A DNA stretch of 64,000 nucleotides. Source: Arthrobacter sp. SLBN-122. Lineage in GTDB: Bacteria; Actinomycetota; Actinomycetes; Actinomycetales; Micrococcaceae. Shown here in pieces: positions 5,623 to 37,145 of the stretch (positions are counted from its first letter, which is position 1; each line of letters starts with the position of its first letter). The position numbers and the translations under genes were made by a program. Where the stretch lies: assembly GCF_006715165.1 (NCBI RefSeq), contig NZ_VFMS01000001.1, positions 248,001-312,000 on the forward strand, read 5' to 3'. The notes below the pieces were generated by a model. That model saw only the letters and a program-made list of their open reading frames with translations. It did not search any database and was not told the origin of the DNA.

Positions 5623-6476
5623 CGGAGGACCCTTTCGTCCTGGGGCAAAGCCCCGATCTTCAACATGACCGTGTAACAAACCAGCGAGACCACCAGGCCG
5701 CCGAGCAGGACTGCGGCGCCCATGGGCGTGTTGTAGGCCTGGATTGCCTCCGGTCTGGTCGCAAGCAGAATCATGACGATCCATGGCGCTGCAACTGCAA
5801 GCCGGGCGGCATTGATGGTCCAGGACTGCCTTGCCTCCAGCTCACTGCGGGTCCGGGCGTTTTCCCGAAGGAATTCCGCCAGGGTACCCAGGAGCTTCCC
5901 CAGGTCTGAGCCGCCCACCTCACGGGTGAGCCGGAGCGCTTCGATAATACGGTCGGCTACTGGGTCGGCAAGACGCTGTTTCAGCTTGTTCAGAGAGCCA
6001 TCGAACTGGCCGCCTGCGCGGTAATCGGCGCCGAACTCGCGAAAGGTGGGCCGCAGTTCCTCAGGCCCCTTATCTCCAAGCTGGATGAGGGCCTCAGGTA
6101 GGGGCAGGCCCGCCCGGATCGCAGAGCGCAGATGATCCACGACGTCAGGCCAAAGTTGGCGCAGCATCGCGGTCCTCTTTTTGGCACGCCACCGGAGGAT
6201 GGTGACCGGCAGCCACGCGCCGAAAAGCCCGAAACAGCCGGCAATGGGCAAGGAGCGACTGAGAGCGAAGAAGACCAGCGCCACGAATACCCCCAGCCCC
6301 AGACAAGTCCCTGCCAGGCCGCTCGCCGAGACTTTGTCTACCCCGGCAGCCGCAAGCAGGTCGGCCAGGCGCCCGGGCTTGCGCTTCCGGTTCCTACGGT
6401 CCGGCGTTTCCCAACAGGACCACCAGATGAGGAAGAGGCCTACCCCTCCTGCTGCTCCCACCAATGCGGAAATCAT
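5619..6476 (-). CDS. tadB: Tad pilus inner-membrane platform protein TadB
   Basis: A GspF-like platform protein of the Tad pilus. The preferred ATG (MISALVGAAGGVGLF) overlaps the cpaF stop as ATGA (6473-6476). The longer open frame running up to 7010 crosses the mobile-element junction and is an artefact. 285 residues: an N-terminal TM, a TM pair around 50-85, and the T2SSF domain with LWPDVVDHLRSAIRAGLPLP and ALRLTREVGGSDLGKLLG. It ends in two C-terminal TMs. Coupling to cpaF means its translation probably suffers from the cpaF disruption. Confidence 0.9.
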   Translation of the reverse strand: MISALVGAAGGVGLFLIWWSCWETPDRRNRKRKPGRLADLLAAAGVDKVSASGLAGTCLGLGVFVALVFFALSRSLPIAGCFGLFGAWLPVTILRWRAKKRTAMLRQLWPDVVDHLRSAIRAGLPLPEALIQLGDKGPEELRPTFREFGADYRAGGQFDGSLNKLKQRLADPVADRIIEALRLTREVGGSDLGKLLGTLAEFLRENARTRSELEARQSWTINAARLAVAAPWIVMILLATRPEAIQAYNTPMGAAVLLGGLVVSLVCYTVMLKIGALPQDERVLR

Positions 6477-6799
6477 CGCGGATCCAGAAGTGCGGCGACG
6501 TCGTACCCTGCCCGTGAGAACTTCTCCGCGGCCGGCATGGCATTGGCCCGGGGCTGCAGCACACCGTTCTCCAGGGCAAAGACCAACGACGACTCGATGA
6601 TGCCGTTTTCCACACGGCGGCCCAATGACAGGATTTGAGTTACTTGGCGCCGACCGTCGGCGTGTCTGCTGCAATGCACCACGAGGTCTATGCAGGATGC
6701 AACCGTGGGGACCACGAAGGCGCTTGAGATGTTGTCCCCCGCCAGCAGCGGCAGCGTGCAGATCTTGGTCACCGCGTCGTGGGCCGAGTTGGCGTGGAC
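6473..6799 (-). pseudogene. cpaF: 3' fragment of cpaF/tadA, separated by the mobile element
   Basis: The minus strand from 6799 reads VHANSAHDAVTKICTLPLL and on to the end of a CpaF/TadA ATPase C-domain. It continues exactly where the 5' part at 36.2 kb breaks off (GMCTVHA). In the codon frame of VHANSA, the element side has TAA one codon upstream, so there is no read-through from the element. The only in-frame starts are internal (the GTG at 6772). The fragment lacks Walker A, Walker B and most of the ATPase core, so it cannot act alone. Its stop still overlaps tadB. Confidence 0.9.
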
Positions 6800-6821
6800 C
6801 AGTTACAGCAAAACCATGACG
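6791..6821. other. attL: left attachment junction
   Basis: Host cpaF sequence (GAGTT before 6791) runs into the core GGCGTGGAC and then the element arm CCAGTTACAGCAAA. The arm extends to 6821 as a 23-bp inverted match (2 mismatches) of 36207-36229. This is a typical attL for a large serine integrase: half attB, half attP. Confidence 0.85.
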
Positions 6822-8210: not shown

Positions 8211-8852
8211 ATGATTTCCCAGAATGATCTCACGGGAGGCTTGAGCCTCCCAGCATTTGGTCTAAATGAAGCACTAAGAAAATGGGTCACAGTCGAAGGT
8301 TCAGACGGTTTTGTACCCGCTTACAAGATCACTTCCATGGATGACGTAACGTCACTAATTATCGAGTTGGTCGATAGCGAAATCTGGACAGCGATTACTC
8401 ACAACGGTAAGCACTACGGCTACCAGATCACCAACGAATCAACTGCTGATCCATCAGACGATCACTTAGTCGCGTCTGATGATGAACCCGAGATTCGTGT
8501 CAGTGACCTTGCTCAAAGCCTCGTAGAAGACGAACTTGCCCACGACGATGAAGATCAGCCAAAAGAACCAAGGCGAGCATCACGTCGTGGCACACCGGAG
8601 CGATGCCAGCAGTTCCGGAAAGAGATAACCGATGAGGATATCGAAGAAGGGTTCACCCAGTTCCGGAATATCTTCTATGGCACCAAGGACAGCGGGCGTA
8701 ACTACGACGCCTTCAAACGAGCAGTAAAAGACGTTCGATCCATCGAGAAAATTCTCAACGCCGCCCACGCCTACACCGGCTTCGAATCCGCCCATCGCTT
8801 CCTCGCGGATGAGCTGTACCTAGACACCGAAGTATTCCGCCGCGAACTCTAA
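8211..8852 (+). CDS. Hypothetical acidic protein (213 aa)
   Basis: Start ATG with GAAAGG 9 nt upstream; the next gene uses the same ribosome-binding sequence, suggesting one operon. The N-terminal half (MISQNDLTGGLSLPAFGLNE) looks globular. A very acidic linker follows (about 85-120), then a helical C-terminal region (ITDEDIEEGFTQFRNIFYGT, FKRAVKDVRSIEKILNAAHA). I recognise no family. Its position directly before the Rep-like gene suggests a partner in element replication or its control, but that is inference. Confidence 0.6.
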   Translation: MISQNDLTGGLSLPAFGLNEALRKWVTVEGSDGFVPAYKITSMDDVTSLIIELVDSEIWTAITHNGKHYGYQITNESTADPSDDHLVASDDEPEIRVSDLAQSLVEDELAHDDEDQPKEPRRASRRGTPERCQQFRKEITDEDIEEGFTQFRNIFYGTKDSGRNYDAFKRAVKDVRSIEKILNAAHAYTGFESAHRFLADELYLDTEVFRREL

Positions 8853-8887: not shown

Positions 8888-9901
8888 GTGCCAACGATAC
8901 TTCAGTCCACGCGGACTAAAGCCTCTGATATACAAAAACGTCTCGACAAATGCCAGCGCACTGAAGGAATTCTGATGCTGCATGGTGATCGGGGAGTCCA
9001 GTCTTACTACCCAAACCCGGTTGCCGGTTCCACTGGTAAACCAAAGTCTACTCACGCTGCTGGCACTCGTTCCGCTGCGCAGCGCGTCGGCTGCAACCAA
9101 GGATGGAATTTTCGTACTCTCACCTCGGCAAAGACAGCTATGACCATGTTTGACCTGTCCCCGATCACTGACCGTGTTGATAACAACGAGGACGTACACA
9201 TCTCCTTCCTTGTTCTCAGCTATGCGAAAGGTGTGGTGACCGACCCCGAGTCAGTGCACGACAATATCGCCAAGTTTCAGCGGAAGATTCGTCAGACAGT
9301 GGGAACTGAGGCAGCCTACGTCTGGGACATAGAAGCGAAGCGCTCAGGTCAAGCACATGTCAACTTCCTAGCGGCCCTGACTGCCAACGAGGCGTACCAG
9401 CTCAGGCTCTGGTGGGCAAAGAATGCATCAGGATTCTCCGGTAAGTACAAGCTGAAGGACGCAGCGTTCCTAAGCGTTCCCACATCCTTTGAAGAGCGCA
9501 CGATCTCTTCGAGGATGCTGGCGCAGCGAGCACTGGGGTACTTTGTCCTCATCGGTTCTAGCCAGAAGGCGATCAAGAAGCGGCACCAGTACAAGTTCGA
9601 TGGTGCGTGGCTGACGAACTCTGGCGCGATGTGGGGACGCTCCGCCAACATCGGCAGGGCGGAGACAGTCCAGTTCGAAATTACGAACCTGAAGCAGCGC
9701 AGGGCCATCGATCGCTATGTCTCTCGCCAGCTTTGTATCAAGCAGAAGATAGTGCAGTGGGTTAGCGTTGATGGTGAGTTGTCGGACGAGTTCGATGTGT
9801 CTCCCTTCTCTCCTGACCGGATTGCTGGCAGTAAGTATGGCGTCACGATCACTCCGCAGATGCGAGTGGACATCGAGTACATCATCAAGGCGCTTGGCTG
9901 A
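8888..9901 (+). CDS. Divergent HUH / rolling-circle Rep-like protein
   Basis: A 337-residue protein starting at GTG with GAAAGG 9 nt upstream. Three stretches match the order of rolling-circle initiators. First, a hydrophobic strand HISFLVLSYAKG (104-115, motif 1). Second, EAKRSGQAHVNFLAAL (149-164, motif 2), where the usual His-hydrophobic-His is His157-Val-Asn159. Third, ALGYFVLIGSSQK (215-227) with Tyr218 as possible catalytic tyrosine, followed by MWGRS (248-252), like the WG block after motif 3 in such Reps. The second metal-binding His is missing, so it is either a divergent nickase or an inactive relative. The role, initiating element replication, is inferred. Inverted repeats lie just downstream. 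Confidence 0.45.
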   Translation: MPTILQSTRTKASDIQKRLDKCQRTEGILMLHGDRGVQSYYPNPVAGSTGKPKSTHAAGTRSAAQRVGCNQGWNFRTLTSAKTAMTMFDLSPITDRVDNNEDVHISFLVLSYAKGVVTDPESVHDNIAKFQRKIRQTVGTEAAYVWDIEAKRSGQAHVNFLAALTANEAYQLRLWWAKNASGFSGKYKLKDAAFLSVPTSFEERTISSRMLAQRALGYFVLIGSSQKAIKKRHQYKFDGAWLTNSGAMWGRSANIGRAETVQFEITNLKQRRAIDRYVSRQLCIKQKIVQWVSVDGELSDEFDVSPFSPDRIAGSKYGVTITPQMRVDIEYIIKALG

Positions 9902-13021: not shown

Positions 13022-14224
13022 TCAACCCGTCCTTCCGAGGTGGTGTTCTGTAGTTCCCAATATCTTGAGCATCCGCCCAACCAGTGACTCCACGGTCGCT
13101 TCCGGCGTCATTTTCAACGCTTCAGTACTGACCGTCACCACACGGGAGTGGACGTCGCTATGCATAGTTCGCGGAGGCTCGAAACTACTCCAGTTATTCA
13201 CCATGATGTGCGAGCGGAGCCCCTTGACGCCGTTGATCCTGAGTCCTAAGGTCCACAAAGACCGGTAACCATAGCGTTCGCTGAGACCGCTGACCCAATA
13301 GGCGAGTCGCTGCGCGTATGCCACCGCTAGCCCATCACAGACGATTGACTCTTCCGGGTTCCACTTTTCTGTACCGCGTCCGACCAATATTCGAAGACCC
13401 CCCGATTCTAACAACTGCACGTCGAGGATCGACTTCTCACTGAAGTCAGAAGGCTTAGGTGTCAGGCCAGCCTTCTCGGCATCGGCATTTAGGATCGAGA
13501 CACCGAGATCACGATGTTTGATCCTAGTCGCGTATTGGGGAGTGGGATAGAAACTGACTAGATTTGCTTTGCATCTGTTGTGCCCGGAAGCCACAAAGTT
13601 GACTAGCGCATATTCGTCATCCAAAAACTGATCTACCAGAGTGCTGTTCACCGGCATTAAGGGTTCGGCGACCAGATAAATATGCCCGTGTTCCCTCTCG
13701 GTGGACGACACATAGTCACTCATCTCGGCGTCGTCCAAGAGCTTCATGGCTAGGTCGGCTTGCTCTTGACGGCGTTGATGGTAGCGCAGAACTTCGGCAT
13801 CCGACAACGCGTGCTTCGACGCGTCGCCCCGCCCGAAATATTTGTTACCGGTCATATGTGGGGCAACTGGCGACGGCTGGACCGTAACCACTACGAACCC
13901 TCCCCCACCTTCAACTTCTATGATTCTGGTCGTGACTGGCAGAGGTGGTTCAATCGCATTACGGGCTATGCCGTCGATCCGTTCAAGCATCCCCTCGACT
14001 GGGATCGGCTTTGGGACGAGTCGCTTCGAACCATTGCCATCTTTCGCTTCAGCGATGCCGATGATGAACATCCCACCATCAATCGCAAAACTAGCTAACG
14101 TCTGAGCAATTTGCTCGTTTCGCGCCTGTTCCTTCACTTCTATGTAGTGGGATTCAGAGATCGCTCCGCTCCTAATCCCGTCTACAATGTCTGCCTCAGT
14201 GGATGGTTGCCAAAAGTTTGCCAT
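13022..14224 (-). CDS. AlbA_2 / Schlafen-type nucleic-acid-binding domain protein
   Basis: 400 residues. The N-terminal region SHYIEVKEQARNEQIAQTLA-SFAIDGGMFIIGIAEAKDG (about 25-63) has the AlbA_2 (Schlafen AlbA-like) pattern ExK...(A/S)FA..GG..IIGI. A Gly-rich strand (VEGGGGFVVVTVQPSPVAPH) and YFGRGDASKHALSDAEV complete this domain by about 150. The rest (about 160-400) is unrecognised. AlbA_2 domains bind nucleic acid and occur in regulators and in defence or stress effectors. Placement next to an EVE-HNH nuclease and SIR2 protein suggests defence; this is inference. Confidence 0.65.
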   Translation of the reverse strand: MANFWQPSTEADIVDGIRSGAISESHYIEVKEQARNEQIAQTLASFAIDGGMFIIGIAEAKDGNGSKRLVPKPIPVEGMLERIDGIARNAIEPPLPVTTRIIEVEGGGGFVVVTVQPSPVAPHMTGNKYFGRGDASKHALSDAEVLRYHQRRQEQADLAMKLLDDAEMSDYVSSTEREHGHIYLVAEPLMPVNSTLVDQFLDDEYALVNFVASGHNRCKANLVSFYPTPQYATRIKHRDLGVSILNADAEKAGLTPKPSDFSEKSILDVQLLESGGLRILVGRGTEKWNPEESIVCDGLAVAYAQRLAYWVSGLSERYGYRSLWTLGLRINGVKGLRSHIMVNNWSSFEPPRTMHSDVHSRVVTVSTEALKMTPEATVESLVGRMLKILGTTEHHLGRTG

Positions 14225-14281: not shown

Positions 14282-15202
14282 TTAAACCGAGGCTCCTACA
14301 AACTCCGAGTTCAGTAACCGATGACTCTCGAAGTAGGCACTGGTTCGAGGCGAAAAAGCCTCACATGCACGACCTATCACTGCTTCGACAGCCAAAGTTA
14401 GATCGTGGGTTCCCTCACGCCACCCGCTTTGGATGGCGCCGTTTGCATCGACAATAATGAAATGTTTCTCGAAGAGAGCGTCACAGCCCAGCGTGCAAGC
14501 TGCCATAACAACGTAGGGATCGTTGCGTTCGACCGTGTCGCAATGCTTGCGGGGCTTGATATGAGCAGTCGTCAGCAACTGGACCGGCAGCTGTCTCCCG
14601 CAGATCGAACATGTAGAAAACGTCTTGTCTTTGAACAAGAAGTCGCGCAGGGTTGACTGCTCGCGGCGGGCGTTTACGACCACTCGACGATTAGTCTCAT
14701 CGAAGTAGGCAGTTGCTTTCTGGTCCTCAGGTTGTTCTTCTTCATCATCAACTGCATCAGGAATAAGGTCCAAACGATCGCTGAGCCACACCCCCACTTC
14801 TGACGGCAACGAAAAGAGGTATCCCTGATTGACATCGCCGTTCTTGTCAAAGGCCGAGCCGTAGGTTTTCGCTTCAACGCGAAGGCTAGTAGGAATTTCA
14901 GTGAGAGGTAGAGGCTTCTCAAGCATCGAGTAGATAACTTGGATGGAGCGCCCATCATTTTGCCAAACGTCCCCACCCTTGTATGGGATCGCAGTCGGCA
15001 GTGAGCCGCGCGACACGTACCCGACGGACTTAATATGCTGCCCGGCGTAGTGAAAGATGACATCGCCTACAGCAACGTCATCTAGTGCGTCCCAATGACG
15101 TTGCCTATAGCCCTTTTCCGTTCGAAGCGGAGCCCAGAGGATACCCAGCGGGCGATCGTGGTCAAAAGAGTTGTTCTGATTGACCCACCAAAAAGTTGTC
15201 AT
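14282..15202 (-). CDS. EVE-domain HNH endonuclease (modification-dependent restriction candidate)
   Basis: 306 residues. The N-terminus MTTFWWVNQNNSFDHD...GILWAPL and the run VAVGDVIFHYAGQHIKSVGY (about 44-61) match EVE/PUA-like modified-base readers. The C-terminal half has an HNH nuclease: C198-x2-C201, TTAHIKPRKH (211-220) and a C-terminal block TLGCDALFEKHFIIVD (237-252). EVE/PUA-like domains fused to HNH nucleases are known type IV restriction enzymes that cut DNA carrying modified bases. Here the fusion supports the same role; which modification is read cannot be told from sequence. Confidence 0.75.
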   Translation of the reverse strand: MTTFWWVNQNNSFDHDRPLGILWAPLRTEKGYRQRHWDALDDVAVGDVIFHYAGQHIKSVGYVSRGSLPTAIPYKGGDVWQNDGRSIQVIYSMLEKPLPLTEIPTSLRVEAKTYGSAFDKNGDVNQGYLFSLPSEVGVWLSDRLDLIPDAVDDEEEQPEDQKATAYFDETNRRVVVNARREQSTLRDFLFKDKTFSTCSICGRQLPVQLLTTAHIKPRKHCDTVERNDPYVVMAACTLGCDALFEKHFIIVDANGAIQSGWREGTHDLTLAVEAVIGRACEAFSPRTSAYFESHRLLNSEFVGASV

Positions 15203-15330: not shown

Positions 15331-18300
15331 CTACAAAGCGGCAGAGCCTTCGGCTGTCGGGTCCAGCCAGCCTATTGCTCCAGCGACACCTAGTCGAACA
15401 AGTTCATTTACCACTGACAACGCCTCTGCCCGCGCTCCGGAGCGCCCCAGATGCCTAACAATGGGCTCCAATCCTTGGCCAAGCCAAGCCCCTACAGCAC
15501 AACCCTGCAACACCCTCGTCAGAACTTTTCCGCATTCTGCCGGGTACTGGGTAACAGGAAGTTTGTTGTAGTCGAAGTTAATTCGGCTTCCCTCGTCTGG
15601 TGCCCTTGGTATAGGACTGCTGAGTAGGACTGCGAGCGCCTCTGGAAGGGAAGTCTCCGTAAGAAAAAGCCATTGGAGGAGCGCGTTCACCTCAATGCCG
15701 TCGAGTCCTATCGGCGTGTTTCTCGCTCTGCGCGCCCAGTAAGTAAGCAGCCGCCTCCATGCCTCAGGGCTGGGTCCCGTATCGCCATACCGCCGAGATA
15801 CAGAATCGATCCAGAGTTCCCGCTCCTCGACGGTCGCCGCCAAAGTGAACGCATCCACCCATGTGGGGTCGTTGTCCGGCAGAAGACCCGAAGAAAACAA
15901 GAACGAATGATGGTCCACAAACGCAGGCATCGCCTCCGGGATATATCGGCTGACCCATGAATAGCCAGATCGAACCGACTCGCTTAACTTCTCCACGGTG
16001 TGACTGGACCACGAGGAGCCGTTCAAGAACCCGGACCAAGTGGCCGCCGCCACCTCAGGGCTCAGAGTCCAGTCGAACAGCGGCAAGAGCTTGTTGTCGG
16101 CCCAGTCTTCATACTCAGAAAAAAACCAACCCGTGCTACCAGCCAGAATTGTAACTGTGTGGAGGTCTCGCTCGTTCCCGATCATAGACTCGATCACCCC
16201 TCGAATCTCACCAGCGAGTACTGGCGTTTCGGGCGCGATACGGGCCAGAACCCCCATGCCCTGAAGGTAATGGAGGGCAAGTCGTCCTCGTGCAGATGAC
16301 CTTGCGCTGCTGTAAGCGTCGGGCTCCTGATCTCCCTCGGGCTCGCTGGCAGCCCCGACTGACTGCCAGAGTTTGTAAAGCGCTGCTAGAACCGGCTTTA
16401 CATCATCGACCTTTTGCGGAGCTTTGTCTGACCATGCTTTGGAAATCAGCGACTCTAAGGAGTAAAGATAACGAGTCCTAGAGGGGTGGTTCGCGAGAAC
16501 CTCCAGAAGCCCTGCCATGTCACCCGGCGCCGCGCATTTTTCGAGGGCCGGAAGGAGTATGTCCCATAGCTCTTCAGACCACAAGTTGCTTTCGCCTAGG
16601 CCTCGAAGCAGTTTCTCGATCCTCGGAGCCGAGGACGCCGCTTCTGCAAGCTCTTGTAACCACTCCTGTGGAAACTCCTCGTTGAAGCCTCGGACTTCTT
16701 GGATGATTGACTCGGCACTTTCCTTGGATAACCGACCGGAGACAGGTGCTTTTTCAGCTTTTTCTCCGGTTCCGAACTCAAAAAAGAATGACTCAAAGTC
16801 AGGATTTTCCCTTGGTTCGAATGCCGGGTTCTCTTCTTGAATACGCTCCAAGGCTTTTCGCGTAGCCTCGTCCGACGCGTCCAACTTACTCAGCCAAACA
16901 AGGAGGTTGTACCGTTCATAGTCGCTTGGCACGTCCGGGGCAACAGCGTGCGACTGGGAAGCAATCTTTAACAACGCCTCTTTCGTCGATTTTGACGCCT
17001 TCGGATAGAAGGCGGCCAGCAGACGGAAGACCTCGTGCTTGACTCGGTGATCGAACAGAAGTTTATGATCCAGTACCAGCCGTACAGCGGTGTCCACCTG
17101 CATGGAATGGAAATGGTGCAGCGCATCGAGGGCCAGCCTCTGAACCACGGTGGACGAGCTTTGCAGCATCCACCGCAGCACCGGTAGGAATTCCTGCTGC
17201 CAAAGCTCTGCCTGTCCTCTGACCGACTCGCGAGCAACATCAATGAGTAGCTGACATCGGTCGCCGTACTGGTCCTGATTATGAGGTTCTATGGCTGCTC
17301 GGCCAGTTGAAATAGGGTCTAAGGGCCGTCCGCTGAAGTGCCGCGAAGCTCCACTGGAGCTAGTAAGAAGGCCTATGCATATCATCATCATTGCGCTTGA
17401 CTCAGAGGACGACAGCGGCAACAACCGCTGCCAAGCGACCTTTGCATGGTGGCGGTCACCATTGACGTCAAAATCAATCCGAACGTCATAGTCCTCGCTC
17501 AGGGACCACATGCTTTTCTCAAAGGCAGGCGTTGGGGTCACTGCCCACTCAAGGAGGCGCATGGCGCCTTCCCTATCGCTTGAGGCAGCTTGTAAGAGCA
17601 GCAGAGATAGTTCGAGACGTCTAGAGCGTGAGGCGCCTTGGAGCAGCACGGACAAGTATGGACCCGCCACATGCGGTTGAGGATATTCGGTGATGAGAGT
17701 CCGCCAGATGGCGGACCATAATGCGTCCGCAACCCCACCACCGTGTTGATGAATAACCCGAAAGAGCAACAAAGGATCGGAACCCTCCACAGACCTCCCA
17801 CACCACTCCGCCCATGCATAGGCTTCATCGGTTCCGCGCTCGACTGATTTTTTCCACAAATCGTCAAGATCACCGCGCTCCGCGCACCAGCGCAACCAGA
17901 CACTGGGGTCTGCTACCGCGAGGAAGTGTTGCAGAGTCTCCACACGCATAAAAGCCGACGAGAGGTACGATTCGTCCAGTGCTGATAGCGAGGGACCCTG
18001 CTCTACGATGCGGCTGATCTTTTCAAGGCGCCCGATGTGAGTCGTGCTGACGCTGTTCTTCCACGCATCCAATGCTTCGGGTAGAGCTGCAAATCTACGC
18101 TCGATAGGGAAGGGTATAGGTGTAACTCCCAGCCCTTCCCACTTATCCAACTCGCTTGTAGGAACAAAGGCGAAATGCTCGATTCCTGCGGGCGGGAGAG
18201 ACCTAGTCAGGTAGCGCATGACTGTGTCCGTCCCACTGTAGCCAACGAACAAAACAGTGTAAGTGCTGAACATACTCGTCAAGAAGCGGGTCGCCCATCC

Positions 18301-26641: not shown

Positions 26642-26690
26642 CAAGTCTTCCTTCGTTATTTAGCCGTTCTGCAACAGTTGACATCGTCCG

Positions 26691-29066
26691 CTAAGCATCT
26701 AGGCGAGCGGGCGCCCCTTCAACGTCAGCGGGGAGAAGCCAAAAGAAACCTAAAACAGTGAAGGCAGCAATAGCGAAAGCGAGCATGTCCTGCACGGCTG
26801 TATGTGTACTGAGAGCGCGAACTCGTCGGTCACGATCATCCCGGCCACGAACATGCCACCTGTAGTCCTTTATTCGCATTGGAAGGGCCATCATTCGATT
26901 TAGATGAGAGGCATCTTCTCTGAAATGGGCGGGCACGGCCAAACCCATGCCTGCGATCGTCCGACCCACATGGCCATTGTTGACACCCGTTATCCATACC
27001 AAAACCCCGACGTAAAGGGCAATGAAGCCGACCAGTATCTGAGCCACTATGGCGGGTCCATAGAGCAAGTTCTTCTGGGACGGAATATGGGCATAGATAG
27101 TCAGCGGCAACCATGCCATGAGCAGCCACATGGGCAGCAGCATTAGCGAGTCCTGAACGGCTCCCTTCCGGCGATCTCCCCATGTCCAGTTCTTTGGTTC
27201 GGAACTGCCATGGATGCTTACGGTCGCACCGACAGTAAGTGCAAAAACAACCAAGTATGCCCCCGCAAAGCCAAGTAGAGACTGCGGCACCTGCACGGGC
27301 GCATCCGGTCGGCCAATCGCTACCGTTAGGGACCAATAAACGGCGGCGAAGATGCTAGCAACAACTGACACCAAATCTAATTTCGATCCTAATGTTGGCC
27401 GCACGAGCCCCATCCTGAGCCCGTTACTGAGGATGCACTCTCCGGCGAAAAGAGCTAGAAGGAAGCTTTGGATTGCGGCCCATAAGTCGAAGTAAGCACT
27501 GTCCAGCACTTGCACGAGGATCGGTACGACGAGAGCCAAACAACAGGCGAGGCTAATGGATACAGTGGCTTTGGTTCTCCATCCGTCTAAGGCGTTCCTT
27601 CGGGCGCCCCTATCCGAAATAAGGAGTAGGACGATGCCGCCTAGAGTGGTGACGATGGCCCCGAGCACAACCCCCACCGACCAAGGCAGACCTGCTGATC
27701 CGTTATTCCATCCGAGTGTGTAAGACGTGAGAAGTGCGAGTGCAACAATGGAGCACAGCGCACCCACCCCGGTCACGGCCAAGCGCCAGTAGATTCGCAC
27801 GATTTCCGGCTTCTGCATAATTGTGGGGCTAGAACCGTTGCCAAGGTATTCCGGGCTGGATTCGATGACGGTGAGCTTTTGCAACTCCGTTTTTCCCACT
27901 TTGATCGCTGGGCCCGCCAGAATGGCTCCCAGTATTGCAAAAACCAGACCGGTTGCAGTTTCAGACAGGTCTGGGCTGCCCGACAACGCGGTGGCCCCGG
28001 ATGTGGCCACGAGAAATACTGCCGAGGTAACTATCCATGGGTAGTCCTCTCTGAAGGACCAGACACCGCGACGCAGCCTGCGGACGACCAATAGCCACCA
28101 TACTGCGCCCACCACCGCGCTGAGGAGAAACAGGAGAGAGACCGGCTGATCAATGCTGGAATGAGTCGCAACAACAGCGGGAGAGACGTAAAGGGACGCG
28201 CCCGCAACTAATTCCAGAGTGGAAATTCCAGCGACACTCGTCGCTGTGCCTGTGGCGTCGGGAAATCGCTGAGGCGAGAGACCAACTGCGAGCCCAAAAG
28301 CAGCCGCCGCAATCACGAATAGGAGGGTAACGAGGCTGGCACTCCAGAAGAGAGTCACTGTAAGGAGGGCAACGGCGACAGGAACGGCAACCGCTAGGGA
28401 CAGGCACGTGCTCAAGAAATGCCGCCAGCCTACAGCCCACATAATCGACGAGCCCAGCACCAATAGCGAAGCACAGAGAGACACGAGCGAGGCCTGCCCA
28501 GCTTGTGTCAGTCCTACTGCACCGCTGTCTATTCCCGCGACAAAGCAGTACGCGATGAACGCCCCCCATGCAATGGCGACGGCTCCGGAGGTTAGTACAG
28601 TCCTACCTTTAGCGACCGTAGATGGGTTTGAAAAGGCGTTTCGCAACCTTTGAACAAAATCTGCCCAAAGCCATGCGAGCAGCCCGGCGGCGCCGATGAG
28701 AAAACCCGCGTGATACCACCCCGCTGCGTTCAGTTGATGAGCACGCGGCATCGTCCAGTTAGGCTGTACGGAAGCGTCAGTCATCCAGACAACAACAACC
28801 ACCACTCCCGAGGAAACCCCGACAAATCCTGCGGACCCTCGAAGTAAATACCCGTCAGGCCTAGGAAGCTTCGAACTTGCCCATGCAAGGGCACCAGCGA
28901 ACAAGGGTAGGAATAGCCCATCTCCCCAAGTCGCGCTGCGGTAATCGAAAAGCCCCGGAAGACTGCTGGGATGCGACCCGGAAAACCACCACACCGATAG
29001 AGCCCCAAACCCGGATAGACACACTGCCAAAGCAAGAATTGACGATGCCCACAGCGATCGGTTCAT
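26691..29066 (-). CDS. Large polytopic membrane protein of unknown function (791 aa)
   Basis: 791 residues with on the order of 18 hydrophobic segments spread over the whole length, and few loops longer than 40 residues. There is a cytoplasmic-looking stretch near the C-terminus (LNRMMALPMRIKDYRWHVRG, RDDRDRRVRALS). No ATPase, transporter signature or enzyme motif was recognised. It ends 46 bp from the SRA-HNH start on the same strand and could be cotranscribed with the restriction block. Giant membrane proteins of unknown type inside defence islands may be effectors or ligand channels; here this is speculation. Confidence 0.7.
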   Translation of the reverse strand: MNRSLWASSILALAVCLSGFGALSVWWFSGSHPSSLPGLFDYRSATWGDGLFLPLFAGALAWASSKLPRPDGYLLRGSAGFVGVSSGVVVVVVWMTDASVQPNWTMPRAHQLNAAGWYHAGFLIGAAGLLAWLWADFVQRLRNAFSNPSTVAKGRTVLTSGAVAIAWGAFIAYCFVAGIDSGAVGLTQAGQASLVSLCASLLVLGSSIMWAVGWRHFLSTCLSLAVAVPVAVALLTVTLFWSASLVTLLFVIAAAAFGLAVGLSPQRFPDATGTATSVAGISTLELVAGASLYVSPAVVATHSSIDQPVSLLFLLSAVVGAVWWLLVVRRLRRGVWSFREDYPWIVTSAVFLVATSGATALSGSPDLSETATGLVFAILGAILAGPAIKVGKTELQKLTVIESSPEYLGNGSSPTIMQKPEIVRIYWRLAVTGVGALCSIVALALLTSYTLGWNNGSAGLPWSVGVVLGAIVTTLGGIVLLLISDRGARRNALDGWRTKATVSISLACCLALVVPILVQVLDSAYFDLWAAIQSFLLALFAGECILSNGLRMGLVRPTLGSKLDLVSVVASIFAAVYWSLTVAIGRPDAPVQVPQSLLGFAGAYLVVFALTVGATVSIHGSSEPKNWTWGDRRKGAVQDSLMLLPMWLLMAWLPLTIYAHIPSQKNLLYGPAIVAQILVGFIALYVGVLVWITGVNNGHVGRTIAGMGLAVPAHFREDASHLNRMMALPMRIKDYRWHVRGRDDRDRRVRALSTHTAVQDMLAFAIAAFTVLGFFWLLPADVEGAPARLDA

Positions 29067-29441: not shown

Positions 29442-29448
29442 TTGGGTT

Positions 29449-30097: not shown

Positions 30098-30253
30098 CTA
30101 GTCCTCCTCGATTACCCCTCGCTTGGCTCGCATGATGCCGACGAAGCGCCGCAGGTGAGTCCATCCTTCCCGTTCTTCCCCCGCTGCGCGGTCACGGATC
30201 ATCTTCAGCGCCGGTTCTGGCTTTAGGATGACCGACGATGCGTCCAAGAGCAT
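30098..30253 (-). CDS. Small hypothetical protein (51 aa)
   Basis: ATG at 30253 to TAG at 30098. The product ends REGWTHLRRFVGIMRAKRGV-IEED and has a protein-like charge pattern (MLLDASSVILKPEPALKMIR at the N-terminus). It begins 17 bp after the stop of the coupled 65-aa gene, so it may be the third member of that minus-strand operon. No clear ribosome-binding site; no family recognised. Confidence 0.4.
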   Translation of the reverse strand: MLLDASSVILKPEPALKMIRDRAAGEEREGWTHLRRFVGIMRAKRGVIEED

Positions 30254-30270
30254 GGGGTGAGTCGGTGTGC

Positions 30271-30468
30271 TCAGCGAGCTATGACAGTTTTTCGTCGGTC
30301 ACACCGGGAGATCAAAGCAAGTGTCACCTTGTGGTGAAGACGGGGGACCATGAGGACATCGAGCACTTCTGCCGTGATGTTGGTTCGCGTAGCAGCAGTG
30401 ACCTGATCCTGCCATCGTTCCGACCGGGCCAACTCCATCAGTTCGGCTTCCGTGTAGCTACCGATCAT
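30271..30468 (-). CDS. Small protein, coupled to upstream gene (65 aa)
   Basis: The ATG at 30468 overlaps the stop of the upstream gene as ATGA, which fixes this start against a longer open frame reaching 30519. The protein MIGSYTEAELMELARSERWQ continues with AATRTNITAEVLDVLMVPRL, reminiscent of a variant leucine-rich/HEAT-like repeat (LA...W...VTAATRTN.T.EVL). No function can be assigned. Confidence 0.5.
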   Translation of the reverse strand: MIGSYTEAELMELARSERWQDQVTAATRTNITAEVLDVLMVPRLHHKVTLALISRCDRRKTVIAR

Positions 30469-31115
30469 GAGTAGTGGCGCGTTGCTTCGTGACTCTTCAT
30501 CTGAATCTCTTCCATCCATTCCGGGTCAGTACTTGAGATGACGCGAGAGATGTGCATGACTCCATCCGGGTCCCTCCTCATATCAACGCCGACGACATCC
30601 TCGCTAGCAATGGTCCTGCACAAGGAAATGAGCGTGCTGGCTTCGAGGAAATAGCAGTGCTTGCCCCTTTCGTTCTCCGACGAGAGGAAGTACCCGTTGA
30701 ATAGGTATTCACCTTCGACCTCTACACCGTCATCCCCCACGTAGGGTTCGTCGATCTCTTTGCAGCTATGGACGAGTACGAAACTGTGCACGATCACATT
30801 GCATAGCTTGGCAAGGGTGATCTGGGCCTTGATGGGATTTGCGAGGTCGTAAATGACATCGATCTCGTGGCGGTTGTAAACGTCAGGTAGTGGTCCGATG
30901 CGCTGGTGCCGCGCGATTGGAATCTGTTTTGCGGCGAGCCTATCCGAGAGTTTGCGAGCTTCGAGGAGTCTTCGTATTGCGTAGCCCGCCATCATAAGGT
31001 CTTTCTCGACGCGGAAGCTTGACCGTTCCGTCCAATGAGTCTGGCGGGTCTTCCGTTCCAGCCGTCTGGCTATGCGCCAGAGTTCGTACCGCCATGGAAC
31101 AGAGTCGGAAATCAT
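30465..31115 (-). CDS. Hypothetical protein (about 216 aa)
   Basis: The preferred ATG gives MISDSVPWRYELWRIARRLE; the open frame extends 30 codons further to a GTG at 31205. The protein has a basic helical N-terminus, then NRHEIDVIYDLANPIKAQIT, LAKLCNVIVHSFVLVHSCKE, YLFNGYFLSSENERGKHCYF and a C-terminal acidic/basic region. It looks globular and soluble. No family recognised. The stop overlaps the next gene by 4 bp, so it heads a small minus-strand operon divergent from the resolvase. Confidence 0.55.
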   Translation of the reverse strand: MISDSVPWRYELWRIARRLERKTRQTHWTERSSFRVEKDLMMAGYAIRRLLEARKLSDRLAAKQIPIARHQRIGPLPDVYNRHEIDVIYDLANPIKAQITLAKLCNVIVHSFVLVHSCKEIDEPYVGDDGVEVEGEYLFNGYFLSSENERGKHCYFLEASTLISLCRTIASEDVVGVDMRRDPDGVMHISRVISSTDPEWMEEIQMKSHEATRHYS

Positions 31116-31225
31116 TCGGCCATAGTATCCGGAGCCGGGTGTCCGCAAACGATCCTTCTCGGACACACTCGACACCAACGCAGTTCGTATTGCAAACAGT
31201 GTCACAAAAGCCGTCTCAGAATCAT

Positions 31226-31271: not shown

Positions 31272-31844
31272 ATGGGACTTCTCGGTTACGCTCGCGTCAG
31301 CACCTTTGAACAGAACTTGGACCTCCAGCTCGACGCATTGAAAGAAGCTGGCTGCGTCAAGATTTACTCCGACAAGGGCATCTCGGGAGCCAAGGCAGAG
31401 CGCCCCGGTCTCGATGAGATGCTGCGGAACCTACGTCCCGGCGACACCATTGTTGTCTGGAAGCTTGACCGTATCGCCCGAAACACTTTGAACCTGCTCA
31501 CACTTGTCGAGAAGCTGGACGCAGAGGGCTGCGCGTTTCGGTCGCTGACGGATGGCATCTCGACAGATGGTCCAATGGGCCGGGCGTTCCTGACGATAGC
31601 GTCAGCGTTCTCTACCCTAGAACGAGACCAGAATATCGCGCGCACTTCGGCGGGGCTAGCAGCAGCCCGCGCAAGGGGTCGCGTGGGTGGCAGGAAGCCG
31701 TCACTCACCGTAGGGCAGGCACAGCAGGTCAAGGCGCTCTACGAGGCAAAGATGTCCGTCACGTCGATTGCCGCGACGATGGGCGTTTCACGACAGACCA
31801 TCTACCGCTACCTCGAATTACAGAACGAATCGGTTTCGATCTAG
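31272..31844 (+). CDS. Small serine recombinase (resolvase/invertase type)
   Basis: 190 residues. It begins MGLLGYARVSTFEQNLDLQL with the catalytic Ser10, then IYSDKGISGAKAERPGLDEM, KLDRIARNTLNLL and MGRAFLTIASAFSTLERD. The C-terminus is a Hin-like helix-turn-helix (VTSIAATMGVSRQTIYRYLE). All landmarks of a Tn3/Gin-family resolvase-invertase are present. It is convergent with the large serine recombinase, the two stops being 14 bp apart. It may resolve dimers, invert a segment or assist excision; which one is unknown. Confidence 0.9.
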   Translation: MGLLGYARVSTFEQNLDLQLDALKEAGCVKIYSDKGISGAKAERPGLDEMLRNLRPGDTIVVWKLDRIARNTLNLLTLVEKLDAEGCAFRSLTDGISTDGPMGRAFLTIASAFSTLERDQNIARTSAGLAAARARGRVGGRKPSLTVGQAQQVKALYEAKMSVTSIAATMGVSRQTIYRYLELQNESVSI

Positions 31845-31857
31845 CTCTCGGGTAGGC

Positions 31858-33558
31858 CTAGTTCTTTACCAGCGACAGCCGAGCAGTGCCGGGTTTTCTC
31901 AGTTCCTCCTTCTCTAGGTTCACCCATTCGATCCATTTGATGCGCTTCGCGTTCAGGGTATTGCTGTGCCCGGTCTTTTGGCTCGGGCCGGGGTACGGCT
32001 GACTCTTGCCGATGATGATCGCTTCGATACCCAGCCTGATGCGCTCGTGCTGCTGACTCTTAGATAGGGTCTTCCAAAATTCCGCTACGTCCATTAGCTG
32101 CGCATTGGTTGTTGCATGGTCCCGGAGTGCAGCGATTTCCTCAGTGATAACACCCACTCTGACGTCGATGTCTGAGCGGTTCCGTTTCAATTCCTCTGCT
32201 GACATTTCCCTATCAGCACGCATGATCAGCATGCTGTCGAGCCTTGCGGCAAGCTTTGCCCTCTCATTCTCGAGCTGAATTATGGTGGAGTCGTTGTTAG
32301 CATTGTTTGCATTCTTGCCAATTCGACCGTCCATCATCTCGTACTCGACCCACCCGAGGTAGAGTTTGATGATTTCCTTTTCAAGGGTCAAAGCACCAAC
32401 TCGCATGTTGCCGCATGACGGTGCCTTCCTCCACTTCACGGCATTTGTCCGCGAGCAGCGGTAGGACGCGTACCGCTTCCGTTGCTTCTTGGCGTCCCAT
32501 CCCTCGCCGTCGTAAGCCATGACTCCACCGCAGTTGGCGCATATGACAAGGCCGCCTAAAAGGCTTTTGCTTGGGCGCTTACCCCGTTTAGCGTTCACCA
32601 GTTTTCTTCGCAGGTCTTCCCAATCCGGGATGGTGACCAGAGCATCCCATCGCGCCTCATGCATGGTCACTTTGTCTTCAAGAAAGTTCGGTGTCGTAAG
32701 TATCTGATAGGTGGACAACGATCCACGGTCAGCCTGCGTTATATGCATGCGTCGCCCGGTGATGCTCGGGCCGATCAAACCATTCCTGAACGAAGTATGT
32801 TCGAGCTGATTCATACCTGTTTCAGCTCTGAATTGGAGCAGGGCTTCAGTGAATGTCTTGCCCCCGAGAATGTTCGCAACGGCTCGCTGGAGAGCGGGAC
32901 CAGTTACGGGGTGGGGTACGAGTTTTGATTTTTCTACAAGGACTTTTTCGTCATCTTCGATAGCATCAACAACATTGACGAGCACCTCCTGACCATCTGC
33001 TGGTACCGACTTATAGCCGAGCGGCACTCTGCCGCCATTCCACAGACCAGATTTAGCTTGGGTGCGCTTCTTGAGGATCAATCGCTCTGATTTGGCGTCG
33101 GACTCCTTCTGAGCCACCGCAACGAGAATCGACGCGGTCATGATCCCATCGGAAGTGGACAGGTCAAGCCGCGAGCCCTGTACGGAGTAGAGTGTCAGCT
33201 TTTGGTTGCTTATCAATTGGGTGAGCTGAACGAGTTCAGAGGTTCGACGGTACAGCCGGTCGGTATTCCAACAGACAATCGCGTCTACTTCAGCCTTCTT
33301 CACTAAAGCAAGCAAGCGCTGGTAAGCAGGACGTTCCCGCTTTGTGTACTTGGACGCACTGATGGAGTTATCGAAGAAGGCTCCGTGGGTATTGAAGCCG
33401 ACAGTCTGTACTTCCCCCGTGTCAGGTACGAGCACGACCTGACTGTCGTTCGCCATCATGCGCTGGACGACTCCGAAGCACTCGTTGATCTGAGCTGCCA
33501 CGTTGACGGCTTTCCCCGAACGGTCGTCGCTGATTCGGGCGTAGATGGCAACTCGCAT
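31858..33558 (-). CDS. Large serine integrase
   Basis: 566 residues. N-terminal resolvase domain with MRVAIYARISDDRSG (Ser10), RPAYQRLLALVKKAEVDAIV and WNTDRLYRR. A recombinase domain follows (KSGLWNGGRVPLGYKS at 169-184), then a zinc ribbon with C340-x2-C343, Cys368 and Cys382. A coiled coil comes next (IIQLENERAKLAARLDSMLI) with a C-terminal tail. This is the full layout of phage and ICE large serine integrases, which join attP and attB without host factors. It is the natural candidate for the enzyme that inserted this element into cpaF; the att arms found at the ends have the expected symmetry. Confidence 0.93.
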   Translation of the reverse strand: MRVAIYARISDDRSGKAVNVAAQINECFGVVQRMMANDSQVVLVPDTGEVQTVGFNTHGAFFDNSISASKYTKRERPAYQRLLALVKKAEVDAIVCWNTDRLYRRTSELVQLTQLISNQKLTLYSVQGSRLDLSTSDGIMTASILVAVAQKESDAKSERLILKKRTQAKSGLWNGGRVPLGYKSVPADGQEVLVNVVDAIEDDEKVLVEKSKLVPHPVTGPALQRAVANILGGKTFTEALLQFRAETGMNQLEHTSFRNGLIGPSITGRRMHITQADRGSLSTYQILTTPNFLEDKVTMHEARWDALVTIPDWEDLRRKLVNAKRGKRPSKSLLGGLVICANCGGVMAYDGEGWDAKKQRKRYASYRCSRTNAVKWRKAPSCGNMRVGALTLEKEIIKLYLGWVEYEMMDGRIGKNANNANNDSTIIQLENERAKLAARLDSMLIMRADREMSAEELKRNRSDIDVRVGVITEEIAALRDHATTNAQLMDVAEFWKTLSKSQQHERIRLGIEAIIIGKSQPYPGPSQKTGHSNTLNAKRIKWIEWVNLEKEELRKPGTARLSLVKN

Positions 33559-33797: not shown

Positions 33798-36002
33798 CTA
33801 TCCCGCAAGGCGCCTAACGGCGTCTTGGAAAACTTCCAGTCGCAATTCATCAGCTTCACCTCGGTACGCCATAGCAAGTGCAGCAGCTTCGAAAACGCCT
33901 TCATCTGGAGTTAGCCACTTGTCTGCGGACACGACGACCGTTGTCTCAAAGTAGTGAACTAGAGCCTCACCTAGGCTGGTCACCGACGCGATGCTGCCGA
34001 GGGCTGGATCGAGGGTGGGCGTTGTAGCGGCGTTACGGTCAACGAGGAAAGACCACCTTTTTCTTCGCTTCGGTTCCAAGTCCTTCCTCACACGTTTGTG
34101 CCCTTCAAGACTGCTAGTGCGGGTCGTATGAAGCCCCAAACTGCGTGCCCTTTCCCTAAGCGCGCAAAGAGCAGCCCGGTCTTCCGCCGAAGTCTTTGCC
34201 GTAGCCGCCGCCCGCAGCCTACCTTCAATAATGGCCAGAATATCCTCGGCGACGACAGTCCTGACAAAAACGTCGATCGATGATGCTTTGCGATCCCGAT
34301 GAATTTCCACGCATCTCCTCGCGACACGCAAAAGATCGCGAGGCAGACCTCCCGACCATGCATGACAAAACGCGCCCACTATCGGGGGGAACCCCTCCGC
34401 GCGTGCGGAAAGTACATTAAGTGATTCCGCCAATGTAAGCGGCGGAACTCTAACAATCGTGTCGAATGATGAATCAAATGCATCCCTCGACGGCAAACCA
34501 CGCTGCTCGAAAGTGTGTAGAGCGTCGGTCGAAACTGAAACCACGAAGTGAACGCCGTCAATGTGGAACAGGTCTTTCAGATCGTTCACCGTATCGATCA
34601 GGTCCTCTGTGAGACTGATCTTGTCCAACTCATCTATGGCAACCACTATTGGGGTGGGATATTCGTCTCGGGCGTACTTGGCGAGCAACGCCCGCAGGTC
34701 GTTCATAATATCGGCATGGGATAGGGCTCGGTCCTTCAGGGTTATGGAGTCTTCGTCTTCCAGCCCCAAGAGTCCACCCATCAGCTTGAAAGCATTCTTG
34801 CTCTTAGAGTTCGACTCCGAGTCGAACTGCATACGCCTAATCGCCGTCCGGGCGACGTCAGGGGCAAGCTTAGGAGCAGGAGCTAGCGCGACGTGAGTCA
34901 GCCGACGAAACGGATTGCGGAAGATTCTCCATGACTTTTCGGAGACACTGGCGAGCAATGGTCTCGCGGCGCTGACTGCGGTAAGCCCGACTAATAGAGC
35001 TGATCCAATTGCAACGACGCCTAGAATGCTTGCCGCCCCCATCCCTTCACCCAGTGAAGGTTTGTAGGGGAGTAAATCCCATAATATGAGGCTCAAGCCA
35101 GCGAATCCGACCAGAAGTGCGACAGTGATCCGAACGCCAAAAACACGAAGTCGTTGCTGCGCAGGACTCCGAGTGGTACTGCTGCTTTCGACTTGACTTA
35201 GTACGTCCTCAGCGACCTTCCGGTGGAGCCGACGTACGAAGTCGATGGGTTCGTACCTGACCGGCGCGGTCATCGGCACCACCCGCAAGCTAGTTTTCGG
35301 GTCGCTATCCAAGCCTCGCATCAAAGTTGATTTGCCGCTACCGCGAGGTCCGGCAATTCCGATCGCCGAAGAGGCGTGACCTGCTATGAAATCCCGCAAG
35401 AAACGGCCCGAAGCAGAAGGAACCACGACTGAGGTTCCGAGTTCGACGAGGCGCGGCGCGTCAGTTGGGAAAGCTAGTTTGCCTTCGGGACCGAGCACCT
35501 CATTTAAAGTCCGAGAAAAGGCTTCCTGAACGAGTGTTCGGGCTTTATCTACCAGTTCCTCGGTTGCGATTTGTACAGCGAGAGTCGCGTTGAGCTGTTT
35601 AAGCTTCGCTCTTATCCTAGCTAGTCCAAGCACATTTATTAGCGCTATAAGCAAGCCTAGTGTCGCGAACGCTGGGACGATCCCCAACACAGGATACGAA
35701 CGAGAAACCTCGTCTAGGCCATATTGTATGTTGGCGCCAAGGCTAAAAACAATGATTCCAACAGATGCACAAACCCCCACAAGCGCCACCCAGCGAAGTC
35801 TGGATGGCCTACGCCGCAGCACTGCGATAGCAGTCTCCTCCGCTGCGATGAAAGATGCAATCTCCGGCTTTAGTTGTTCAAGGATTTCAGGGAACGTCTC
35901 CTGAATGCGGCGGTCCAACGACCCCCGAAATTCCACGTAGGGAAGATAGTCATCCGAGTCGGCAATCTCAGTGTAGAGGTCGAGAAGATTAGAAGCTTTC
36001 AT
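33798..36002 (-). CDS. KAP-like P-loop NTPase with membrane segments
   Basis: The frame begins with GTG at 36044, but GGGAGG about 9 nt upstream of the ATG at 36002 favours MKASNLLDLYTEIADSDDYL (734 aa). Counted from the GTG, Walker A is GPRGSGKST (232-240) and Walker B is VVAIDELDKI (467-476). Two pairs of TM helices (about 85-141 and 303-360) flank and interrupt the P-loop domain, as in KAP NTPases such as PifA and Kidins220 relatives. KAP NTPases occur in plasmid-borne phage exclusion. It is the last gene before the right end of the element. Confidence 0.75.
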   Translation of the reverse strand: MKASNLLDLYTEIADSDDYLPYVEFRGSLDRRIQETFPEILEQLKPEIASFIAAEETAIAVLRRRPSRLRWVALVGVCASVGIIVFSLGANIQYGLDEVSRSYPVLGIVPAFATLGLLIALINVLGLARIRAKLKQLNATLAVQIATEELVDKARTLVQEAFSRTLNEVLGPEGKLAFPTDAPRLVELGTSVVVPSASGRFLRDFIAGHASSAIGIAGPRGSGKSTLMRGLDSDPKTSLRVVPMTAPVRYEPIDFVRRLHRKVAEDVLSQVESSSTTRSPAQQRLRVFGVRITVALLVGFAGLSLILWDLLPYKPSLGEGMGAASILGVVAIGSALLVGLTAVSAARPLLASVSEKSWRIFRNPFRRLTHVALAPAPKLAPDVARTAIRRMQFDSESNSKSKNAFKLMGGLLGLEDEDSITLKDRALSHADIMNDLRALLAKYARDEYPTPIVVAIDELDKISLTEDLIDTVNDLKDLFHIDGVHFVVSVSTDALHTFEQRGLPSRDAFDSSFDTIVRVPPLTLAESLNVLSARAEGFPPIVGAFCHAWSGGLPRDLLRVARRCVEIHRDRKASSIDVFVRTVVAEDILAIIEGRLRAAATAKTSAEDRAALCALRERARSLGLHTTRTSSLEGHKRVRKDLEPKRRKRWSFLVDRNAATTPTLDPALGSIASVTSLGEALVHYFETTVVVSADKWLTPDEGVFEAAALAMAYRGEADELRLEVFQDAVRRLAG

Positions 36003-36128
36003 GCCATCGACGGCCTCCCATGCCTCCGTCGCACCCATTGCCACTCCCTCGTCTTCAAACGATCAGTGTTCGTGGTTCTGAACCCACGACCGAAACACTA
36101 CATCTGCGCCCCAGAAGCGGGACGTGGG

Positions 36129-37145
36129 CTAAGGATACGGCGCCAGTCGTTGCATCTCGTCGCAGACTCGCAGGTCCCCTCCGGAACCGGCAGAGAAGGA
36201 GGGGGCCGTCGTGGGTTTGCTGTAACTGGCATGGACGGTGCACATTCCAGGAAGGCCACTATTAAGTGCAATCAGCATGTCGAGGCTCTCGGCTTCCCGC
36301 ACCTCCCCCACCACGAGCCGGTCGGGGCGCATGCGCAACGCCTCTTTCACCAGCCGACGAAGTGGAATTTCGCCCTCACCTTCGAGGTTCGGCTGCCTGC
36401 ACTGCAGACCTACTACGTCACGGAGCGGAAACTGCAATTCGAAGATTTCCTCGACAGTAATGACACGCTCCCGGCTTCCGATGCTGGCCGCCAGACAGTT
36501 CAACATCGTGGTCTTGCCGGCCTGGGTGGCCCCCGACACGAGGACGTTGAGTCCGCTGGATACTGCAGCGCCCAGAAATCGCGCTGACTGCGGGGTCAGC
36601 GTTCCCAGCTCCACCAGATGTTCCAGACGACTGGCCTTCACGACGAACTTGCGAATGTTCACGGCCCAGTGGCGGCGGGTCACGTCTGGAATAACGACGT
36701 GCAGCCTGGAGCCGTCCGGCAACGCAGCATCGACAAACGGCGACGACATATCGAGCCTTCTACCGGAGCTTTTGAGCATTCGCTCCACGAGGTCACGCAC
36801 CTGCTGCTCCGTAAGACTCACCGATGTCAGCTCTGATTCGCCGTTGCGCGCCACATAGATCTCGTTGGGTGCGTTGAGCCAAATCTCCTCGATCGAGGGA
36901 TCGTCGAGGAGCGGTTGAAGTACCCCGAACCCTGCGACGGCGTCGAAAAGAAACCGGCGGGCTGCATCAAGGGGACCAAGCGGCGGGAGCGGCCCCATCA
37001 GTGCCCGTTGGTCATAGTCAGTGACCGCGGCCTCGACCAACCGCCGGACCTCGCCGGCCTGCCTGAGCGGATCCAGCCCCCGGCGGCGGATGAGCTCCCG
37101 GACTTCGTCCTCGACTATTCCCAGCGCGTCCATATGTTCCCCCAT
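36129..37145 (-). pseudogene. cpaF: 5' part of cpaF/tadA, truncated by the mobile element
   Basis: CpaF/TadA is the hexameric secretion ATPase that powers Tad/Flp pilus assembly. Residues 1-306 are native: an N-terminal helical domain, Walker A GATQAGKT (205-212), Asp box EEIFELQFP (232-240), Walker B region RMRPDRLVVGEVR (271-283) and the His box up to GMCTVHA. From residue 307 the frame enters the element and adds 32 foreign residues (SYSKPTTAPS...) before stopping at 36129. The missing C-domain is the fragment at 6473-6799. Start ATG at 37145 or the in-frame ATG at 37133. It is the first gene of the tad operon. Confidence 0.92.
36207..36236. other. attR: right attachment junction
   Basis: The element arm ending TTTGCTGTAACTGG (36216-36229) meets the core GGCATGGAC (36228-36236), which continues into host cpaF (GGTGCACATTCC). 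The arm extends to 36207 as a 23-bp inverted match, with 2 mismatches, to the left end. Confidence 0.85.

Follow-up and report, generated by a model that had tools for sequence, protein, structure and literature searches.

A serine-integrase element in the Tad pilus ATPase gene cpaF of an Arthrobacter strain, at a recurrent target of mobile elements

Introduction

Elements in other phyla disrupt the competence genes comK, comYC, comFA and comM, and in models elements that block transformation escape chromosomal curing (PMC4774983). The targets of large serine recombinases (LSRs) are enriched overall in DNA competence genes (PMC10083194), and in Micrococcus luteus transformation depends on all the genes of the two tad clusters but tadB (PMC4322843). 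M. luteus and Arthrobacter both belong to the Micrococcaceae. Here we analyse a stretch of 64,000 nucleotides from Arthrobacter sp. SLBN-122 (assembly GCF_006715165.1, contig NZ_VFMS01000001.1, positions 248,001 to 312,000; "the window"), in which an integrated element splits cpaF (tadA), the gene for the Tad pilus ATPase, and we compare it with the cpaF genes of relatives. No published report was found on LSR elements in cpaF, tadA or tadC, in a search that left supplements and most subscription journals outside.

Results

Structure of the interrupted gene

The cpaF gene lies on the minus strand and is interrupted by one 29,437-bp element. The features that define the interruption are as follows.

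36229..37145, minus strand: 5' part of cpaF/tadA (T2SSE ATPase; Pfam T2SSE, 3.2e-35), about 309 native residues, 83% DNA identity to positions 1-917 of the intact cpaF of relative G008
6473..6800, minus strand: 3' part of cpaF/tadA, which picks up at VHANSAHDAVTK and has its stop at 6473; DNA and tblastn match to intact cpaF
36207..36240: attachment site where the 5' part of cpaF meets the element, P arm and central CA/TG at 36232-36233 (from inverted-repeat arm, sequence and junction table)
6785..6821: attachment site where the 3' part of cpaF meets the element, P' arm and central CA/TG at 6795-6796 (same evidence)
31858..33558, minus strand: LSR of 566 residues, predicted integrase (Pfam Resolvase, 2.1e-18, and Zn_ribbon_recom), of the S5 integrase clade defined below

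The 3' part (window 6478-6800) is 88% identical in DNA to positions 909-1231 of the G008 gene, on which the two parts overlap by 9 bp, and at the protein level (tblastn) the parts correspond to residues 1-310 and 304-410 of one 410-residue G008 protein. The original prediction of a cpaF gene split by a 29.4-kb element is thus borne out, both parts aligning to one contiguous gene of a relative. The open reading frame (ORF) of the 5' part, 36129-37145, encodes 338 residues, continuing into the element after the approximately 309 native ones. The cut falls in what we take to be the His box of the ATPase.

Inverted arms of 23 nt at 6799-6821 and 36207-36229 are 91% complementary and spaced 29,385 bp apart. 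Read together in the orientation of the gene, the element ends form an imperfect palindrome centred on CA (TG on the plus strand), and the host flanks at both junctions have GTCCA(C/T)GC in common. Palindromic arms around a shared central dinucleotide are the layout of serine-integrase attachment sites, and the same layout recurs at the same cpaF site in another genome of the genus, G074. Placing the dyad centre on the common CA dinucleotide gives the element length of 29,437 bp; the boundary, core and size proposed from the sequence at the outset were right. These observations support the conclusion that the element has the anatomy of site-specific integration into cpaF. A transposon with terminal inverted repeats was rejected because the arms can be explained as two halves of one attP dyad and the element encodes an LSR, and an assembly artefact because the genome consists of one contig and G074 has its element at the same site.

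The 566-residue LSR has a PF00239 catalytic domain and, in its long C-terminal part, a PF13408 zinc ribbon. PF07508 was not detected in it, and the host genome has no PF07508 match. We predict from its sequence that this protein is the integrase of the element, which also encodes a second, smaller recombinase:

31272..31844, plus strand: small serine resolvase/invertase, 190 residues (Pfam Resolvase and HTH_7; phrog_125, DNA invertase)

No capsid, portal, terminase or tail gene was found in the element among 18 larger ORFs compared with Pfam and five compared with PHROGs, and the same 18 gave no Pfam match to relaxase or type IV secretion genes, the smaller ORFs being unscanned. The S5-type LSR matched 576 annotated phage records, all below 60% identity (23-27% for the eight matches listed), and 14 loci in IMG/VR at 23-32%. 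For 24 of the element's 29 kb there is no plasmid match. A Tn554-like origin was rejected for this element.

cpaF is a hotspot for mobile elements

An intact cpaF of 1,231 bp was used as a DNA query against 205 genomes of Arthrobacter in the GTDB sense, the host included; these are 205 of the 206 genomes later listed for the genus, G227 being the one outside. The gene was matched in 203 of the 205 (69 of 70, 69 of 70 and 65 of 65). Comparison with the cpaF of relatives, the check first proposed for the split, found it unsplit in 180 of these 203, including G133, in which it is visible only up to a contig edge and which is excluded from the split count. In the other 23 genomes cpaF is split, at about eight positions:

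S1, near position 277 of cpaF: G011, G017, G036, G095
S2a, near 405: G070
S2b, near 429: G013, G191
S3, near 619: G168
S4, near 888: G023, G138, G140, G164, G168, G181, G216
S5, near 909 (the site in the window): the host (G000), G074 and the draft genome G139 (3' piece starts at 930)
Single case, near 939: G225
S6, near 985: G006, G023, G059, G065, G080, G155

Two genomes, G023 and G168, carry two elements each in cpaF, with a sliver of the gene between them, and G181 lacks the part of cpaF from S4 to S6. The pieces of cpaF lie on separate contigs in five of the 23 (G013, G070, G140, G191 and G225), and G139 has the 3' piece only; it is counted as split though its partial LSR is on another contig. 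Within each site group the junction sequences have short cores in common. Separately, G170 has an intact cpaF together with an extra cpaF sliver (contig C38:33418-34037) whose two ends coincide exactly with the S1 and S4 positions.

Of the 23 split genomes, 20 have an LSR ORF inside the insert: in 18 it is no more than 200 bp from the break, and in the host and G216 it lies deeper (2.7 and 3.2 kb). The break in G191 is flanked by tyrosine recombinases (PF00589, two ORFs), and G013 has a partial ORF resembling the G191 recombinase, as judged by eye from its start; these are presumably Tn554-like, a type proposed for these two genomes. We conclude that cpaF is a hotspot for mobile elements.

Interruption is not confined to the ATPase gene. 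In G004, G028, G100, G131, G144, G150, G155, G166, G185 and G211, ten genomes in all, tadC is broken by an LSR element at one position near the gene end (site S7, MMVPLV/FGV in the protein), tadC resuming 9-12 kb on. One of these, G155, has an S7 element in tadC and an S6 element in cpaF, and cpaF or tadC is broken in 32 genomes. Two further genomes, G130 and G172, are similar by distance but have an intact tadC and were not counted. Another LSR clade is found in G189, G006 and G086 (L030, L032 and L036) at the tadC of a different, third tad locus or immediately beyond it. As an observation apart, a 466-residue LSR family in G223 and G034 (L037 and L041) adjoins a gene that by eye resembles prmC/hemK, apparently another landing site.

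Beyond the genus, partial cpaF was found in 15 of 141 genomes of the family, some with stops that may mean decay; this count leaves out G255, at a contig edge, and G364, contiguous and frameshifted. An LSR stands at a junction in all nine of these cases that were retrieved. The search was widened to 139 genomes of the order, of which about 129 belong to other families. Partial cpaF was found in eight of the latter; all eight were retrieved in part, and six have an LSR beside the break. In most site groups the integrase gene points the same way as cpaF and adjoins the 5' part of that gene. That this is always so was rejected, since it fails for S3, for three S7 elements and for G286, G241 and G317.

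Integrase clade and insertion site

A tree was built of 54 LSRs, to which nine from other genera of the family were later added; both trees were made quickly and contain some long branches, those of G070 and S3 most of all. In the 54-LSR tree the S1, S4 and S6 integrases each form one clade (support 98-100), and the S7 integrases likewise form one (support 100). Of the LSRs from the wider family, that of G286 is placed with S1, that of G359 with S3, those of G343, G250 and G283 with S4, and those of G319 and G328 with G225; the G241 LSR is unplaced by site. With 12 labels, background included, 16 changes are needed on the 54-LSR tree against a mean of 37 for shuffled labels, and none of 200 shuffles was as low. 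Integrase clade predicts site, with one exception; each integrase lineage appears to inherit its choice of site, and the lineages converge on one gene.

The window's LSR clusters with those of G074 and G139 and with one metagenome protein (support 100). The G074 integrase is 33-36% identical to it and occupies the same cpaF site. The original prediction also held that the element may enter many Tad-bearing relatives, which stands only narrowly: across the 206 genus genomes its integrase clade is found, besides the host, in G074 and the draft G139 alone, the latter with a partial integrase on a separate contig. Many other integrases cut cpaF at other sites, so that the favoured target is the gene and not a single His-box sequence. 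The element of G070 (L055 and L056) is instructive. Its cargo is 75-83% identical to parts of window 25418-31205, whereas its integrase is only 27% identical to the window's and uses a different cpaF site. The two elements apparently record an integrase swap on a common backbone, and the combination of similar cargo with another integrase and another site argues that the elements keep to the gene as such rather than to one ancestral sequence.

Kinds of element and the cargo in the window

The elements differ in kind. That of G074 resembles a prophage in its genes (terminase, portal, major head, tape measure), and elements of about 9-10 kb in G080 (S6), G036 (S1) and G028 (S7) each encode an LSR, a major head protein and a replication-initiation protein; no further structural match was found among the few of their ORFs scanned. 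The small elements are possible capsid-encoding satellites of actinobacterial phages. From its gene content we read the window element as a mobile defence island, with the following genes in addition to its recombinases.

33798..36044, minus strand: KAP-type P-loop NTPase, 748 residues, between the 5' junction and the integrase (Pfam KAP_NTPase, 5.1e-6)
30465..31205, minus strand: protein of 246 residues with no function assigned (blastp between elements: G074 77%, G070 48%)
26691..29066, minus strand: protein of 791 residues, by eye resembling a membrane protein, with a counterpart in the G070 element that is 83% identical along its whole length; no Pfam family
25418..26644, minus strand: SRA-HNH protein of modified-DNA nuclease type (Pfam SAD_SRA, 4.1e-29, and HNH_2); 75% identical over 66% of its length in G070
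23348..25309, minus strand: type I restriction-modification methylase HsdM (Pfam N6_Mtase, HsdM_N; PADLOC MTase_I)
22017..23351, minus strand: type I specificity subunit HsdS (Pfam Methylase_S; PADLOC Specificity_I)
18898..22014, minus strand: type I restriction subunit HsdR (Pfam HSDR_N, SWI2_SNF2; PADLOC REase_I)
15331..18843, minus strand: SIR2-domain protein, 1170 residues, with a Dsr1-like N terminus (Pfam SIR2_2; PADLOC Dsr1, 9e-42; NCBIfam Dsr1 far below cut-off)
14282..15202, minus strand: HNH endonuclease-like protein (PADLOC HNH, 4.4e-6; no Pfam family)
13022..14224, minus strand: Schlafen AlbA_2-domain protein (Pfam SLFN_AlbA_2; no PADLOC family)
8888..9901, plus strand: possible replication protein, a weak match (Pfam REP_ORF2-G2P, 7.6e-4, below cut-off; no PHROG)
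8211..8852, plus strand: possible replication-initiation protein, a weak match (phrog_2447, 1.4e-4)

Window 11490-12200, inside the defence island, encodes a proline-rich protein with, by eye, a signal-like start and a C-terminal membrane anchor; it has no match in Pfam, NCBIfam or PHROGs.

The tad operon and its host

The operon to which cpaF belongs reads, on the minus strand, cpaF(tadA)-tadB-tadC-pilin-like ORF-tadE-TadE/G-like genes.

5622..6476, minus strand: tadB, which follows cpaF in the operon (Pfam T2SSF; ORF)
4684..5784, minus strand: tadC (longest ORF), near whose end the S7 elements of relatives insert (Pfam T2SSF; S7 junctions)
2859..4607, minus strand: remainder of the tad operon, including a pilin-like ORF of 95 residues with no Pfam match (Pfam TadE and Tad; ORFs)
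3906-4316, minus strand: TadE (Pfam, ORFs)
3302-3922, minus strand: TadE/G-like protein, a weak match (Pfam, ORFs)
2859-3302, minus strand: TadE/G-like protein (Pfam, ORFs)

No tadZ-like gene was seen beside the operon, no dedicated search having been made. The host genome, a single contig of 4.47 Mb, has comEC as an open frame of 718 residues and carries three other T2SSE ATPases.

Discussion

We put at about even the chances that the element cuts cpaF for the reason that loss of the pilus would stop natural transformation, so that the element would not be removed. The 566-residue integrase would have carried out the insertion; the ATPase, truncated inside the His box, would be inactive and the pilus lost. 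If the Tad pilus here is a DNA-uptake pilus, as in Micrococcus luteus, breaking it would stop transformation and the element would thereby escape curing, and the pattern of insertions may be maintained because elements are selected to prevent their own curing through transformation. The simplest joint reading of the data would be that cpaF is a competence gene here and that its disruption benefits the elements.

Several points weigh against this. No published report of natural transformation in Arthrobacter was found, and orthology with the M. luteus tad-1 ATPase is tentative, being drawn from gene order in a high-GC Micrococcus-like genus, in which the tad genes are ordered as in the window. 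The three other T2SSE ATPases of the host mean that pilus function might survive, and the LSR clade at the third tad locus means that the target is not the window-type operon alone. G317 is the exception to the rule that clade predicts site: its LSR falls in the S4 clade but breaks cpaF elsewhere. Six of the 15 family cases were not retrieved, and two of the eight cases from the order have no LSR in the stretch retrieved. Conserved but dispensable genes, moreover, make good landing sites without any selection for disruption.

This last point is an explanation in its own right, in which cpaF is highly conserved in DNA but dispensable, integrases use it as an always-present, low-cost site, and nothing is gained from breaking the pilus. 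It fits with insertions that fall in conserved coding motifs, with the spread of split genomes over many genera, and with the few family genomes in which no close cpaF ortholog was matched or the gene looks decayed. On the other hand, cpaF is the common target of two recombinase families and of at least seven LSR lineages, and tadC of the same operon is struck too, which favours the pathway over one convenient sequence. A PF07508 search of the 206 genomes gave 135 rows, of which the 125 of at least 200 nt were kept and ten shorter ones dropped; 29 of the 125 lie in cpaF or tadC (19 and ten, respectively) against 0.06 expected by chance, an estimate that ignores the shared ancestry of the elements. 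The window's LSR lacks PF07508 and so is outside this count.

Paralogs of the ATPase gene bear on the same question. A query of 1,301 bp from the host's paralogous tadA (L003) was matched in 198 of the 206 genomes, and none was split among the best 150 rows (149 genomes), each of at least about 1,140 bases. This control is weak and biased, because with rows ranked by score split copies would fall out first, and 49 genomes lie outside it; we put no weight on the Fisher value calculated from it. A fairer one used 37 genus genomes, 35 of which have a tadA2-type paralog matched to the query end with an open frame of at least 486 residues, whereas cpaF is split in seven; seven of the 36 with the gene against none of 35 for the paralog gives a Fisher p of 0.006, in a comparison in which most of the genomes have two tadA2-type paralogs and only one was required to be intact. 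We consider a landing site of convenience possible but rather unlikely.

Two further explanations give the broken pilus a different use. Pili are phage receptors in other bacteria, and an element that breaks a Tad pilus serving as receptor would protect both its host and itself from pilus-dependent phages. The type I restriction-modification set, the SRA-HNH and SIR2 proteins and the other predicted defence proteins of the window element would suit such a role, which is harder to reconcile with the three 9-10-kb elements that look like phage satellites and would have little to gain from blocking all phages; we think this improbable. In Listeria, excision from comK is regulated, and the element studied here might similarly excise under some condition and restore cpaF. 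Neither its integrase gene nor its attachment sites seem damaged, and the cpaF halves match one continuous frame, but no directionality factor was identified, and the paired elements in G023 and G168 and the missing stretch in G181 point to lasting loss. A reversible switch is in our judgement very improbable.

Returning to an escape from curing through loss of transformation, a wider proposal can be made, tentatively and with somewhat less than even confidence: the Tad locus across the actinobacterial order may be an arena of conflict between transformation and mobile elements, in which at least seven serine lineages and one tyrosine type would each have evolved its own target in one pilus-motor gene, and prophages, capsid-carrying satellites and defence islands would all switch off DNA uptake on arrival. 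If so, a pilus gene usually linked to adhesion would mark DNA uptake in relatives of Arthrobacter, and the count of broken copies would be a natural record of selection on mobile elements to block transformation. The many separate cases with close intact and split strains are material for the chromosomal-curing hypothesis outside the usual model bacteria, and the match of clade to site supplies paired integrases and target sites within one gene.

Comparison with known systems

The tyrosine recombinases of G191 and the similar partial ORF of G013, likened above to Tn554-like transposons, belong to another cpaF position than that of the window element. The M. luteus competence pilus encoded by tad-1 and tad-2 is alike in its gene families and in the order tadA-tadB-tadC-pilin-like-tadE/F-tadG; function is shown only in M. 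luteus, and orthology here is drawn from gene order and similarity (PMC4322843). Among LSRs with a common target gene, several distant recombinases likewise converge on one conserved gene, but the example given, a prolyl isomerase, is a single conserved site, whereas here each lineage has its own site in cpaF (PMC10083194). The words pilus, ATPase and Arthrobacter are absent from the main text of that paper, whose supplements may list such sites.

The closest parallel is with the elements in comYC, comFA, comM and comK, which also insert repeatedly and site-specifically into coding sequences for DNA uptake, and in which different integrases use different sites of one gene, two comFA sites being reported (PMC4774983). 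The present case differs in that the target is a Tad pilus ATPase in Actinobacteria, where many integrase lineages use some eight sites within cpaF, and in that the role of the target in transformation would follow from its likeness to a known system.

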